From a virus, in IMG/VR virus record IMGVR_UViG_3300050035_000717, positions 1 to 31,117 of that record: 31,117 nucleotides of DNA; one strand, written 5' to 3'. Shown piece by piece: positions 5,743 to 23,153 of the stretch. The notes beneath the pieces are model-generated. The model was given only the letters and a program-made list of their open reading frames with translations, had not been told where the DNA came from and did not search any database. Each line of letters starts with the position of its first letter. Within the stretch, counting starts at the first letter, position 1. The position numbers and the translations under genes are program-made.

Positions 5743-6231
5743 TCACGCGTCTTTCCCGGATTTCTCGTCAGACTCAAGAAAGAGCGCCGTCTCTGCCTGA
5801 CGCCGACGCAACAGACCGGCGACGACCTTGCCGCCCGCGTGATCCCACAGGTCAATCTGCGCGGCGGCGCCGGCGTAGTCTCCAGAGTTCAACTTACGTA
5901 GGAGTGTGCTGTTGTCGAACGCGCCAATGCCGACATTGTAGATGAAGTCCTGCAGCGCCGCGGTTTCGTCCACTGTCAGCCAGACTTTTACCACGCGGGC
6001 AATTTCGCGCGCAGTTTTGTGCAATTCATCAGCCAGCCAGATGCGCGCGAGCTGAAGCGTTATCGGTGGCGTATTCTCCGTCACCGGTGCACCATCCGGC
6101 AGCCAGACCGACCCGTAGCCAATCGTCCAGCGCGGCGGCTTCGCCAGCATGTCAAGATATGGCTCGGCCGAAAAGCCCTCGAATCTGGCTGCCAGTTCCG
6201 CGGCTTCCTGATCTGCTGTTTTGCTCATCAT
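5743..6231 (-). CDS. Phage lysozyme (GH24, T4-type muramidase endolysin)
   Basis: 162-aa enzyme with the T4 lysozyme triad in correct spacing: Glu18 (RFEGFS), Asp27 (PYLDML) and Thr36 (RWTIGYG). The downstream NVGIGAFDNSTLLRKLNSGDY and GLLRRRQAE blocks are also characteristic of the family. It hydrolyses the beta-1,4 bond between MurNAc and GlcNAc in peptidoglycan. There is no N-terminal hydrophobic signal-arrest-release segment, so release to the periplasm should depend on a holin. The ATG at 6231 overlaps the stop of the upstream small membrane-protein gene as ATGA; a second ATG follows directly at 6228. A much longer frame upstream has no start support. Key residues are intact, so it is probably active. 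Confidence 0.9.
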   Translation of the reverse strand: MMSKTADQEAAELAARFEGFSAEPYLDMLAKPPRWTIGYGSVWLPDGAPVTENTPPITLQLARIWLADELHKTAREIARVVKVWLTVDETAALQDFIYNVGIGAFDNSTLLRKLNSGDYAGAAAQIDLWDHAGGKVVAGLLRRRQAETALFLESDEKSGKDA

Positions 6232-19350: not shown

Positions 19351-20343
19351 TCAGTTTCCTTGTTGCGTTCCAGGCCACGTCAGACCCAGACGGGGATCGA
19401 ACGCGGCCCGGCCGGCCGGGGCGCGTGCCGCTTGGCGAGAGAGGGTATCGACCATCCAGCGTCCAACGCGCATTCCGTCCAGGTAGACGTCGCCCTCCGA
19501 CGTGCCTTTCTCCTGATCACGCGCCGGCGGTGCCATAGCGGACGCCATCGACGGTCCTGCCGACCAATCGGATGCAGCGTCGCTCGTCAAACCCGATACC
19601 GCTGGCGGGATAGTCGTGGGCTCCACGGATCGCCGCGGTTTGCGCTCCACCGCCGGCATGGCGAAGCTGCCCCTCTGTGGCACGGCCGGTGCGAGTTCGG
19701 CGAATGCCGGGCTCCGCATTGGGCGTGGCTCATGCATCGCCGGTTGATTTACCGGAGCCGGCGCGAGGCGCTCGCTCTCAGGCACCGATGTTTCCCGCCG
19801 AGTGGGCTGTGTCATCACAAGGGGCGCTGCGGCCGGCACCGTTGGTCGCGCCAACGCGGTCTGGGGCGACGATGCCGCTGCGACAGGCTGCACCGGGGCG
19901 GGCTGCGACCGTGTCGTCGGGATGAAGCTGGAGAAAGATGCACCCGGAACAGGCGAATCCGCCTGCGGCACGCGCGCCGTCGACAGAGCCGTTGGTTTTG
20001 TCTGCGGGTGAGGCAGTATAGGTGCCCGTGAAGGCTGTGGCGCAAACGCGGGTGAAAGCGTTGGCGCCGACTGCGGTGGCGGTGCAGATAGAAGCACAGG
20101 GGCAGGTGGAAGCGGAATCGTTGCCGCGCCCGGCGCCGGTACGCATGGTTGCGGTTGCGCTGCCGGCGGCGACGGCAGCGCGCGTCCGACAGCAGCCCCG
20201 CGTTCTCGCAGTCGCTCCATCCCACCCATGCTAACAGACATGGCATGGTCAAGCGCCGCAAGGTCACGACGGAGTACGGCGATGCCCGCGGAGGCGCCAT
20301 CCTCCAGCGCGAGCCGGATGCCGATGGTGTAAGCCTCGTCCAT
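19351..20343 (-). CDS. Short proline-rich protein in the tape-measure position
   Basis: 330-aa protein with three parts. Residues 1-55 are a helical N-terminus (MDEAYTIGIRLALEDGASAG, then VLRRDLAALDHAM), which I associate with small tape-measure-like proteins of alphaproteobacterial phages. Residues ~55-270 are low-complexity Pro/Ala/Gln/Ser. Residues ~283-330 are an ordered-looking C-terminus (GDVYLDGMRVGRWMVDTL, then FDPRLGLTWPG). The ATG at 20343 has a consensus AGGAGG 4 nt upstream and overlaps the preceding stop (TGATG). It lies where a tape measure normally sits, after the tail chaperones and before the hub, and no longer gene is available for that job. It lacks the long coiled coil and membrane helices typical of tape measures, so the role is inferred from position. 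Confidence 0.55.
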   Translation of the reverse strand: MDEAYTIGIRLALEDGASAGIAVLRRDLAALDHAMSVSMGGMERLRERGAAVGRALPSPPAAQPQPCVPAPGAATIPLPPAPVLLSAPPPQSAPTLSPAFAPQPSRAPILPHPQTKPTALSTARVPQADSPVPGASFSSFIPTTRSQPAPVQPVAAASSPQTALARPTVPAAAPLVMTQPTRRETSVPESERLAPAPVNQPAMHEPRPMRSPAFAELAPAVPQRGSFAMPAVERKPRRSVEPTTIPPAVSGLTSDAASDWSAGPSMASAMAPPARDQEKGTSEGDVYLDGMRVGRWMVDTLSRQAARAPAGRAAFDPRLGLTWPGTQQGN

Positions 20344-20633
20344 CACGCCTCCTGCATGGTTGCCGCGATGGCCGCGGCGATCGCATCGGCCACGCCTTTG
20401 CGTTCTGCGGCCACGAGCCTCGCCAACGCCGCGTCGGGCGGGCAGCCTGGGGTACCCTTCTCTCGCTCCCACGCCGCTTTTCCGCGCAGGGCAACGGTCA
20501 TGCCGTCGGCGTCCACCAGCACATCGGCCTCTGTCGCCCGCGCCAGGCGCGTCGCCTCCCGTTGCAGCGTCGCCGATACACTCCCCACCAAATCAAGCCG
20601 TTGCATCCGTGCGTGCAGTTCGGAAACGCTCAC
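20343..20633 (-). CDS. Unrecognised 96-aa phage tail-region protein
   Basis: Helix-rich protein beginning (M)SVSELHARMQRLDLVGSV. I chose the GTG at 20633 because a strong GGAAGGAG lies 5 nt upstream and the GTG overlaps the stop of the chaperone frameshift extension as GTGA. A longer ATG frame would run over that extension and lacks a ribosome binding site. The middle (ADVLVDADGMTVALRGKAAW) suggests a small beta unit followed by Ala-rich helices. The C-terminus overlaps the next gene (TGATG). Position between tail chaperone and tape-measure-like gene suggests a tail assembly role. I do not recognise the family. Confidence 0.6.
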   Translation of the reverse strand: MSVSELHARMQRLDLVGSVSATLQREATRLARATEADVLVDADGMTVALRGKAAWEREKGTPGCPPDAALARLVAAERKGVADAIAAAIAATMQEA

Positions 20634-21147
20634 TTGTGCTCCTTCCAACGCATGGTGGCGACATCGAACTCGCCGCCATCCAGTGTTCCCAGAGCCACGA
20701 CCCACGCCAGCCGTTCCTCGACGGAAAGGCTGAACGCCACGTCGAAAGGCACCCCGTTCCGGATCAGGTAAAGGCAATCCACCAGATCGGGGTGCCCGAT
20801 CAGTTTCCCACCACGTCCGCCACTTGCGTCTCCGACGCGGGTGTCTCCGCCAGGGCCGCCGCCACTGCCGCTATCCCCTCGTCCCCCAGCCGCGAGACCA
20901 TGGCCTCGATCTGAGCCTCGTTGGCTGGCGCAGGCACGGGTACATCGTCGATCATGCTCACGCTGGCGGCCAAGACGGCCATGCCCAGCCAGAGCTGGTT
21001 CTGCGCCAACGCCGGCCCGGCCGCCTTGAACAACCGCAGTTTGTCCAGCGCGGTCAGCCGCCGCAGCGCAAGCCGGCGCCCGCTGGTGTCGGTCACGGTC
21101 GGCGCCGACTGCGCCGCCGCGATCAGACGAGACGAAGGCGTATCCAT
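20630..21147 (-). CDS. Tail assembly chaperone G-T fusion made by programmed -1 frameshift
   Basis: The 115-codon chaperone frame (20800-21147) and a downstream frame without start codon or Shine-Dalgarno join by a -1 shift at the heptamer G GGA AAC (20803-20809), directly before the TGA. The extension adds 57 residues (LIGHPDLVDCLYLIRNGVPF, then SLSVEERLAWVVALGTLDGG and ending MRWKEHK) and stops at 20630, overlapping the next GTG start as GTGA. The product would be 172 aa. The arrangement mirrors lambda G/GT and P2 E/E', where the two forms in fixed ratio assemble tube around tape measure. Known: the mechanism in those phages. Seen: the heptamer, frame relation, stem-loop and coding quality of the extension. 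Inferred: that it is used here. Confidence 0.82.
20785..20809 (-). promoter_or_regulatory. Programmed -1 frameshift site: slippery heptamer plus stem-loop
   Basis: On the minus strand GGGAAAC (20803-20809) is read in frame as G GGA AAC, an exact X XXY YYZ slippery site; lambda uses GGGAAAG. The zero-frame stop TGA (20800-20802) follows at once. A perfect 7-bp stem GATCGGG/CCCGATC with loop CAC (20785-20801) begins one base after the heptamer. That spacer is shorter than the usual 5-9 nt, so partial melting or a larger structure would be needed for it to stimulate slippage. Confidence 0.8.
20800..21147 (-). CDS. Tail assembly chaperone G-like (zero-frame product)
   Basis: 115-aa protein (MDTPSSRLIAAAQSAPTVTD, then GRRLALRRLTALDKLRLFKA and a helical acidic C-terminal half). 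The LALRRLTALDKLRLFKAAG element fits phage tail assembly chaperones encoded directly after the tube gene. The ATG at 21147 overlaps the tube stop (TGATG). It ends in VADVVGN before the TGA next to the slippery site; a fraction of ribosomes should continue into the -1 frame. It probably binds the tape-measure-position protein until tube subunits polymerise. Confidence 0.82.
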   Translation of the reverse strand: MDTPSSRLIAAAQSAPTVTDTSGRRLALRRLTALDKLRLFKAAGPALAQNQLWLGMAVLAASVSMIDDVPVPAPANEAQIEAMVSRLGDEGIAAVAAALAETPASETQVADVVGN

Positions 21148-21575
21148 CAGACGCGCAGCCGCTGGCTGGCGAAAAATTCCAACCGTTGCTTCACGCTGGC
21201 GTCTCCCCTCCAGGTTCCGGCCTGCGTCAGTTTGAACACGACGTTGCTATACTGGTAGGTCGAGGTCGATCCATCCGGCTCCGCCACGTACTGGTAAAGC
21301 GTACCGGCACCCACGTTCTGGCCGTTGATGAAGTTGGCCTCCATCGAGGCGATAAAGTCATCCACGGTAGAGTCACCGCGCTCCAACTCAAAGTATCCCT
21401 CCCAGCCCTTCGGCAACTCGGCGCCGAGCGCCACGCCGTCGATACAATCGACCCTGACCGGCGCGGTAAGCTGGCGGCTCTCGAATCCTGTTACATACGT
21501 CAGGTCGATGCGGCCCGTCGGCGCCATCACGACCAGTGAGCAGTCGCGACCGATGGAAAACGTGTTGGCAGGCAC
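21147..21575 (-). CDS. Tail tube protein
   Basis: 142-aa beta-rich protein just downstream of the sheath gene, the invariant position of the tail tube. It begins (M)PANTFSIGRDCSLVVMAPTG and includes TAPVRVDCIDGVALGAELPK, GYFELERGDSTVDDFIASME and YQYSNVVFKLTQAGTWRGDA, consistent with the hexameric tube fold. The GTG at 21575 is preceded by GGAGGG with a 6-nt gap. A TTG two codons earlier touches the ribosome binding site and is less likely. Confidence 0.85.
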   Translation of the reverse strand: MPANTFSIGRDCSLVVMAPTGRIDLTYVTGFESRQLTAPVRVDCIDGVALGAELPKGWEGYFELERGDSTVDDFIASMEANFINGQNVGAGTLYQYVAEPDGSTSTYQYSNVVFKLTQAGTWRGDASVKQRLEFFASQRLRV

Positions 21576-21587
21576 TGGCAACCCTCC

Positions 21588-23153
21588 TTACGATGCGGCC
21601 ACGCCGGTGGGCAGAACCTGACTCTGCACCTGTACCGTCTGTCCGCCCTCGATGTTGACGATGAACTTCTCGTTGATTGCCTGATACTGAATCTGCGCGT
21701 CCGATTGCACGTATCCCAGCCCGGTGCGGCTCGGCGGATTGTTGGATGTATCGCAGATCACGCTGAACGGCAGGCTTCCGTCAACACTTCCCAGCAACCC
21801 CTGTGACAACATGTTTTGCAGGAAGCTCAGCTGCGTGGCGCGGATTTTTCGGAACAAGCTGGCATTGACAACCTGCCCGACATACGCCCCCATCCCGGAG
21901 GCCAGCGTCGCGGCGATATAGTTGGTCAGCCGGGTATAGTTGTCGCCATTGGTGCCCGAGTTGGACGAGGTGTTGTGCCCGCCCCGCACGCCCCAGTAGG
22001 ACCCGCCCGGCTGTGGGTTGCTGATCACATCGATGCCCGCCTGCAGCAACACCGAGAGTTCGGCCGCGGAATAGCTGGTGCTCTGGCTGCTGGAAGGCGT
22101 GCCCGACATCTGACTGCCGACAACGCCATAGATCTGCTTGTTCAGGCTGCTCTGCTCGGGGCTCAGATTGGCAAGCCTGCCGGCGACGAAACCCTGTGGA
22201 CTCACCACCCGCGTGACAGCGTTGACCTGGTCATTCCACCAGATCCAGTCGCCGAACATCAGCTTGCAGGCGTAGCAGTCGAGCCCGGCCGACATCTTCG
22301 TTGCCACCGCGCTGGTAATGCCGTCGCCAGCCGGGCCAGTCAGGATCATGTAGATACCTTCGGCCAGCCCGAACTCGGCCTGCACGGTCCACTGCGACGC
22401 ATCATCCCCATCCGCCAGCACGCCGATGCCGCAGCCCTGGCTCCGCAAGGCATACATGCCGGTGCGAGGAATGGTGTCGACCCCGACCAGGTTCACCGCC
22501 GTCACGCTGGCAGCACCGTCCGTACCCTGCGGGCCTGTTGCGAACGGCCAACTGAACGCGACGGGCGTCGTTGAACTGCCACCGGCATTCGCCACGACGA
22601 TCTGGCTGGCACCCCGCTGCACGCCCTGGCCATTGTTCACAGCGTTGGCGAGTGCTGCCCAGAAGGCGGCGCCGGTCCCGCCGATGTTGTCGAACACCTC
22701 CGGCGCCAATCCCGGCAGCGACACGGTTAGCCGCCACGTGTTGGCTTGGCTGCCGGTAGCCAGAGTTACCGTTATGCTGTTGCCGACGCTGCCAGAGTAA
22801 AGTGCCGTGAACAGAAAGTTCGTGTTCGGCACGCTGAACTGAGCGGCGGTGTCGGTACCGTCAGTGACACGTACGCACCGAAAGTTCTGGGCACCCTGCT
22901 GGATCGCGGTCGCCACCTGCGTTCCCATGTCGTACTTGCGCGCGATGATCGGGCCGAAGTTGGCCGCGTAATCTGCCATCGTCGCGACGATCACCGGCTG
23001 TCCGACGGGTCCCCAACTCGCGCTGCCGACGACTCCCACCACGTCGGTCGGAACGCCATTCAACAGAAGGTTCTGCGGCGGCACGATCTGCACATACAGA
23101 TCGGGAACAACCAGCGCCGTGGTATTGATGCTGCCTTGCTGGACAATGGGCAT
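21588..23153 (-). CDS. Tail sheath protein
   Basis: 521-aa contractile sheath subunit. The N-terminal domain carries VPDLYVQIVPPQ and the hallmark GVPTDVVGVVGSASWGPVGQ with MADYAANFG. The C-terminal domain carries PGGSYWGVRGGHNTSS, TNGDNYTRLTNYIAATLASG and SQGLLGSVDGSLPFSVICDT, blocks typical of phage sheath proteins. This gene shows that the particle has a contractile (myovirus-type) tail. The ATG at 23153 has GGGAG 8 nt upstream. Length is normal and no break is seen, so contraction competence is plausible. Confidence 0.93.
   Translation of the reverse strand: MPIVQQGSINTTALVVPDLYVQIVPPQNLLLNGVPTDVVGVVGSASWGPVGQPVIVATMADYAANFGPIIARKYDMGTQVATAIQQGAQNFRCVRVTDGTDTAAQFSVPNTNFLFTALYSGSVGNSITVTLATGSQANTWRLTVSLPGLAPEVFDNIGGTGAAFWAALANAVNNGQGVQRGASQIVVANAGGSSTTPVAFSWPFATGPQGTDGAASVTAVNLVGVDTIPRTGMYALRSQGCGIGVLADGDDASQWTVQAEFGLAEGIYMILTGPAGDGITSAVATKMSAGLDCYACKLMFGDWIWWNDQVNAVTRVVSPQGFVAGRLANLSPEQSSLNKQIYGVVGSQMSGTPSSSQSTSYSAAELSVLLQAGIDVISNPQPGGSYWGVRGGHNTSSNSGTNGDNYTRLTNYIAATLASGMGAYVGQVVNASLFRKIRATQLSFLQNMLSQGLLGSVDGSLPFSVICDTSNNPPSRTGLGYVQSDAQIQYQAINEKFIVNIEGGQTVQVQSQVLPTGVAAS

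Follow-up and report, generated by a model that had tools for sequence, protein, structure and literature searches.

The window analysed in this work is the whole of the virus record IMGVR_UViG_3300050035_000717, a stretch of 31,117 bases. Its minus strand carries a tail gene module in which an open reading frame of 115 amino acids is continued beyond its stop codon by a 57-codon extension in the -1 frame. The features of the module are listed below.

21588-23153, minus strand: tail sheath (phrog_23 tail sheath, E 3e-43)
21147-21581, minus strand: probable tail tube gene, assigned by its position between sheath and chaperone (phrog_12993, function unknown, E 7e-39)
20800-21147, minus strand: zero-frame putative tail assembly chaperone, 115 aa, lambda G-like (phrog_20383, function unknown, E 2e-23; AlphaFold model with BFVD matches)
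20803-20809, minus strand: slippery heptamer G_GGA_AAC, read from the sequence
20800-20802, minus strand: zero-frame stop TGA, directly 3' of the heptamer
20797-20802, minus strand: spacer of 6 nt from heptamer to stem, by count, with identical spacing in the alignment of relatives
20788-20796, minus strand: 5' arm of the conserved stem, GGCACCCCG, proposed stimulator (covariation, helix scan, synonymous sites)
20757-20787, minus strand: apical loop of 31 nt; the inner 5-bp helix in the minimum free energy fold of the window is weakly conserved
20748-20756, minus strand: 3' arm of the conserved stem, CGGGGTGCC, proposed stimulator (same evidence as the 5' arm)
20785-20801, minus strand: small hairpin put forward in an earlier, sequence-only reading of the window; unconserved and mutually exclusive with the conserved stem
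20630-20803, minus strand: -1 frame extension, 57 aa, lambda T-like (selection in its own frame)
20343-20633, minus strand: next gene, whose GTG start (20633) overlaps the stop of the extension as GTGA
19351-20343, minus strand: candidate tape measure gene, 330 aa, Pro/Ala-rich, placed by position, with no family match

The gene order is sheath, tube-like gene, chaperone, one short gene and presumed tape measure. The chaperone thus follows the major tail genes and precedes the presumed tape measure gene, the sheath being assigned by its PHROG and the tube and tape measure by position. Beyond the presumed tape measure there are baseplate-type genes (Phage_base_V above cut-off, Gp45 below cut-off). 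The place of the short gene is occupied, in one Rhodovastum plasmid, by a gene annotated as phage virion morphogenesis protein. Scans of the window with Rfam and for tRNAs gave no matches. In relatives, most of the large downstream ORFs have some 250-430 aa, and ORFs of about 630-810 aa are present at the tape measure place in plasmid relatives; the small size of the presumed tape measure protein in the window makes a short or unusual tail possible.

The chaperone family has no informative name in Pfam, PHROGs or NCBIfam. Searches with the chaperone against Pfam and NCBIfam gave sub-threshold matches only, and the tail assembly chaperone family phrog_508 was matched by four of 61 family members, with a best E of 0.0014. 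In BFVD, the collection of predicted structures of viral proteins, the AlphaFold model (pLDDT 90.2) matched a phage protein that is itself uncharacterised (E 1.4e-6). The same search returned FS-gp41 of phage Mu (E 0.025, probability 0.98) and, among annotated chaperones, that of Gemini (E 0.036) and with weaker scores those of Finch and RcRhea; the Colossus chaperone was a weak match at rank 40 (E 1.6). No fold in the PDB matched the model at E 0.001 or better. Fold, phrog_508 matches and position together make a good case, but not proof, that the 115 aa ORF is a tail assembly chaperone.

The zero-frame ORF (21147-20800, minus strand) ends in GTG GGA AAC TGA, giving the C-terminus ...VVGN, and the heptamer is in the right phase immediately before the stop. 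The -1 frame from 20803 reads CTG ATC GGG CAC (LIGHPD...) and continues for 57 codons to the TGA at 20632-20630, which gives 115 + 57 = 172 aa for the frameshift product. The sequence-only reading had proposed here a programmed -1 frameshift of the lambda G/GT type, with a product of about 172 aa and an extension ending as GTGA on the next gene. The heptamer, its phase, the overlap and the arithmetic of the frames all agree with the sequence, and the frameshift itself has strong comparative support, given below.

Relatives were collected by the extension (best 80 of 455), by the chaperone (best 80 of 90) and by the extension in bacterial genomes (best 80 of 82), to which four plasmid regions were added. 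Among the resulting 244 sequences, 243 loci and the window, a usable match to the extension is found in 241, none in two, and in one the match lies at the edge. Distinct loci, 181 in number, are defined as distinct stretches of the heptamer and 100 nt, after removal of rows whose flank was too short; collapsing these at 85% identity left 84 loci. Rates of substitution were calculated on a random sample of 60 from the 133 loci with 54-58 codons and more than 60% identity.

A heptamer of the form X_XXY_YYZ occupies precisely this position in 174 of the 181 distinct loci (134 GGGAAAC, 36 AAAAAAC, 2 AAAAAAG, 1 AAAAAAT and 1 AAAAAAA) and in 78 of the 84 collapsed loci; its loss in close homologues, which the sequence-only reading had named as grounds for giving up the frameshift, is not what is found. 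In 140 of the 174 loci the zero-frame stop follows without any gap; in 27 loci 18 nt lie between the two, and in seven loci 3 nt. As a control, the same frame was read farther upstream in the 84 collapsed loci: of its 7332 in-phase codon positions, 20 carry any X_XXY_YYZ and none carries GGGAAAC or AAAAAAC. Three adjacent bases separate the two main forms, one of which encodes Gly and the other Lys; on a quick tree of 77 rows, in which 36 of 74 inner branches are weakly supported, there are at least eight switches between them, and none of the 181 distinct loci carries a one- or two-base intermediate. Since the forms alternate, the residue changes and intermediates are absent, the pattern points to selection for shiftiness rather than for the protein.

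The seven distinct loci with no heptamer at this place are of different kinds. In L175, L231, L237 and L241 no canonical in-phase heptamer is present in the stretch searched, L231 and L237 having partial sites (G_GGG_GAA and A_AAG_AAG, respectively). In L213 a GGGAAAC is found 51 nt farther upstream and in L164 a CCCTTTG 15 nt farther upstream, both in phase. In L233 (Endobacter medicaginis, about 5900-6160) the heptamer is lost, six of the nine stem pairs are kept and the chaperone is in the other relative frame, around GCT TGA, where the two frames could be joined only by a +1 or -2 shift. A further odd locus, L076 (IMGVR_UViG_3300037258_000922), has the heptamer and a zero-frame TAG about 18 codons before it, which is best read as a decayed copy or an assembly error.

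Six nucleotides after the heptamer begins a 9-bp stem, formed by GGCACCCCG (20796-20788) and CGGGGTGCC (20756-20748). Over the 84 collapsed sequences 92.7% of 756 cells are paired, against 37-48% for slid versions of the stem, and the number of double-changed cells is 18 against a shuffle mean of 2.1, a value reached by none of 500 shuffles. The re-paired variants include GGCACTCCG/CGGAGTGCC in L139 and L152, GGGACGTTG/CAACGTCCC in L232 and GAACCCCG/CGGGGTTC in L161 and L163. RNAalifold, unprompted, recovered six of the nine pairs, and in a scan of all six-bp helices between -40 and +140 in 77 sequences four registers of the stem took ranks 1-4 among 13,695. A pattern of heptamer plus stem, written at the DNA level only, found at least 119 stretches in viral contigs, and all of the 80 that were examined as loci had the same gene context; a variant pattern from the Aquitalea/Pantoea stem had no matches in viral contigs. 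Several of the most distant loci, L235, L240 and L241 among them, have a poorly formed stem, and the local fold energy of the window is unexceptional (z -1.44; 17 of 200 shuffles as good).

Other structures were considered as well. The hairpin at 20801-20785, which starts one base past the heptamer and was pointed out in the sequence-only reading, exists as a perfect inverted repeat but is not conserved, and it is rejected as the stimulator; with 58.5% of cells paired it is little better than shuffles (19 of 500 as good). An inner helix within the 31-nt loop is paired in 61.7% of cells, and sliding it by one column gives a better value (70.2%), so it is left out of the proposed signal. The scan of all helices from -40 to +140 in the 77 sequences showed, among the best 25, no well-paired covarying helix between loop and downstream sequence of the kind expected for a pseudoknot.

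The stem could also be conserved on account of the motifs it encodes (HPD and NGVPF), or for some other role of the RNA or DNA, and not as a stimulator of frameshifting; both arms are within well conserved protein columns, and the tests of the stem were made on sequences. Because both arms encode conserved residues, the synonymous sites were tested. Codons 3-5 have a pS of 0.10-0.23 and codons 16-18 one of 0-0.07 (60-sequence sample), so the synonymous sites of the arms are frozen, and the neighbouring codons are free, loop codons 9, 10 and 12 having a pS of 1.52, 1.22 and 1.46; low values (0.17-0.23) are also seen at the Leu codons 1, 7 and 13 of the extension. Gly-17 of the extension is encoded by GGG in 73 of the 82 Gly-bearing loci; among the 542 Gly codons of the chaperone, GGG is used 152 times. 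The changes on both sides of the stem in L232, L139 and L152 also speak against this alternative, and the 6-nt spacer is within the usual range of 5-9 nt between heptamer and structure (PMC7618472). We consider a conservation for reasons other than frameshifting unlikely, although it is the most serious of the alternatives.

The extension is a real coding sequence, as the sequence-only reading had supposed: its median dN/dS is 0.23 in its own frame, and shifting the frame gives 1.37 and 1.81 (60-sequence sample). It has no match in Pfam, PHROGs or NCBIfam. The predicted structure is a small three-helix domain (pLDDT 85.9), for which a fold search in BFVD returned nothing significant. The extension does not appear in the gene tables, themselves incomplete, of the four plasmid regions. 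If it were a separate small gene with a start of its own, reached by reinitiation or at an internal GTG, the heptamer would be incidental. There are candidate starts: codon 18 is GTG in 76 of the 84 collapsed loci, and in the window codon 8 (20782) is GTG, so that the extension is not entirely devoid of start codons, as the sequence-only reading had it; no more than 14 of the 84 collapsed loci have GTG at this codon. In L196 (Acidicaldus organivorans, 5989-6000) A_AAA_AAA runs into ATGA, so that codon 1 of the extension is an ATG overlapping the stop, and reinitiation could there add to frameshifting. However, no start is conserved, as 57 of the 84 loci have neither ATG nor GTG in the frame of the extension from its upstream stop to codon 8, and the GTG at codon 18 is accounted for by the 3' arm of the stem, to which it belongs. 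Codons 1-16, located 5' of that conserved GTG, are under protein-level selection (pN/pS 0.24) and translation must therefore enter from upstream. Together with the retention of the heptamer, this makes a separate gene very improbable.

Even less probable is an origin of the extended form in transcriptional slippage at a run of A, for which the six A of the AAAAAAC group (36 of 181) might speak; 134 of the 181 loci carry GGGAAAC, with no run longer than three, and six A are short for polymerase slippage. That the change of frame is a sequencing error or a decayed gene has nothing in its favour and could be thought of only for a locus viewed alone; with the -1 relation identical in all 100 distinct 63-mers from 157 loci, its probability is negligible.

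The isolated phage which bears on the question is Komagataeibacter phage phiKX1 (LC644975, 8504-9045), a temperate phage of an acetic acid bacterium which was found through its sheath (50% identity) and not used in the definition of the stem. It carries AAAAAAC-TGA, the identical 9-bp stem, the 6-nt spacer and a 31-nt loop. The gene annotation treats its extension as a hypothetical ORF of its own, PhiKX1_590, which starts at an internal ATG; this annotation would fit a separate gene, while heptamer and stem suggest that PhiKX1_590 is the product of frameshifting. A term search of the text of the phiKX1 paper gave no occurrences of "frameshift". Searching the phage collection by tblastn with chaperone and extension of the window returned nothing, the phiKX1 proteins included, nor did the Pantoea and Ralstonia relatives as queries.

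We are close to certain that programmed -1 frameshifting at this locus yields a 115 aa chaperone and a 172 aa extended form, like lambda G/GT. According to the mechanism proposed from these comparisons, a minority of ribosomes would be stalled by the 9-bp stem with GGA AAC in the P and A sites and would slip back by one base, GGA giving way to GGG and AAC to AAA, by which the stop would be bypassed. The slipped ribosomes would make the protein with the 57 aa C-terminal domain. By analogy to gpG and gpGT of lambda, the short product may form a coat around the tape measure protein, and the longer one may bring in the subunit of the tail tube. A point against the frameshift is that A_AAA_AAC shifts much more weakly in E. 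coli than A_AAA_AAG does (PMC5009743); as an AAC-ending site is weak in that species, we infer that a stem lifting its efficiency makes sense. For the whole family, it appears probable that these contractile-tail phages, across host groups from Acetobacteraceae to Planctomycetes, keep an Asn-ending heptamer and, at a constant spacing, a 9-bp stem whose sequence serves the -1 protein and the RNA alike, and that, unlike in lambda, a ratio of the gpG:gpGT kind is set by structure-dependent frameshifting; the chaperone of the Endobacter locus L233 would then have moved to the +1/-2 frame, with part of the stem kept.

The mechanism is already known from many tailed phages, and what is new is a large family in which both parts of the signal are clearly under selection. 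A conserved frameshift of the tail assembly genes of dsDNA phages was reportedly described by Xu, Hendrix and Duda in 2004. The frameshift is widely conserved in long-tailed phages (PMC5009743), and its efficiency in a cluster of chaperones was measured at 6-7% by the authors of GeneTack (PMC3711429). As in the window, the lambda -1 shift lies close to the end of a small gene that follows the major tail genes, and it results in a short and a C-terminally extended chaperone (PMC5009743, PMC3483164); the differences are the lambda heptamer G_GGA_AAG as opposed to one ending in AAC (Asn), and in the window the gene between chaperone and presumed tape measure and the covarying stem. Burkholderia phage KL1 gp18/gp19 has GGGAAAC directly before TGA, an intervening gene before the tape measure, which is also found in HK97, and a downstream stem-loop suggested by Mfold from a single sequence (PMC3483164). 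KL1 is however a siphovirus, and the likeness is one of signal and gene order. The same two heptamers are present in the pre-tape-measure chaperones of the Caulobacter phages phiCbK (AAAAAAC) and Colossus (GGGAAAC), and the passage on them in PMC3556154 describes no downstream structure. Mu shares the FS-gp41 fold match, the contractile tail and the type of baseplate neighbours, but -2 frameshifting is reported for it (PMC5009743). The dnaX gene of E. coli also combines a heptamer with a simple 3' stem-loop on bacterial ribosomes (PMC5009743); it differs by A_AAA_AAG, an upstream Shine-Dalgarno stimulator and by being a cellular gene for an unrelated protein. PhiKX1 has a homologous sheath, AAAAAAC and the same stem, and differs in that its extension is annotated separately. 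Our literature search, from which most subscription papers were outside, found no report of frameshifting in this chaperone family.

By this analysis phrog_20383, of unknown function, and a 57 aa stretch with no family match become a putative pair of chaperones for which a mechanism is predicted; the phages concerned have contractile tails and form a large, mostly uncultured group. The comparative evidence that a 3' RNA stem belongs to this tail gene frameshift is unusually strong, and the natural compensatory variants of the stem can be used directly in a reporter.

Two copies of the module (L183 and L184) are found in opposite orientation on one 81-kb contig (CAIYCW010000145.1). Relatives are also present on records filed as plasmids, namely L162 and L164 (Rhodovastum), L161 (Aquitalea) and L163 (Pantoea), which suggests phage-plasmids or prophages on plasmids; L161 and L163 carry genes for a P22-type capsid protein.
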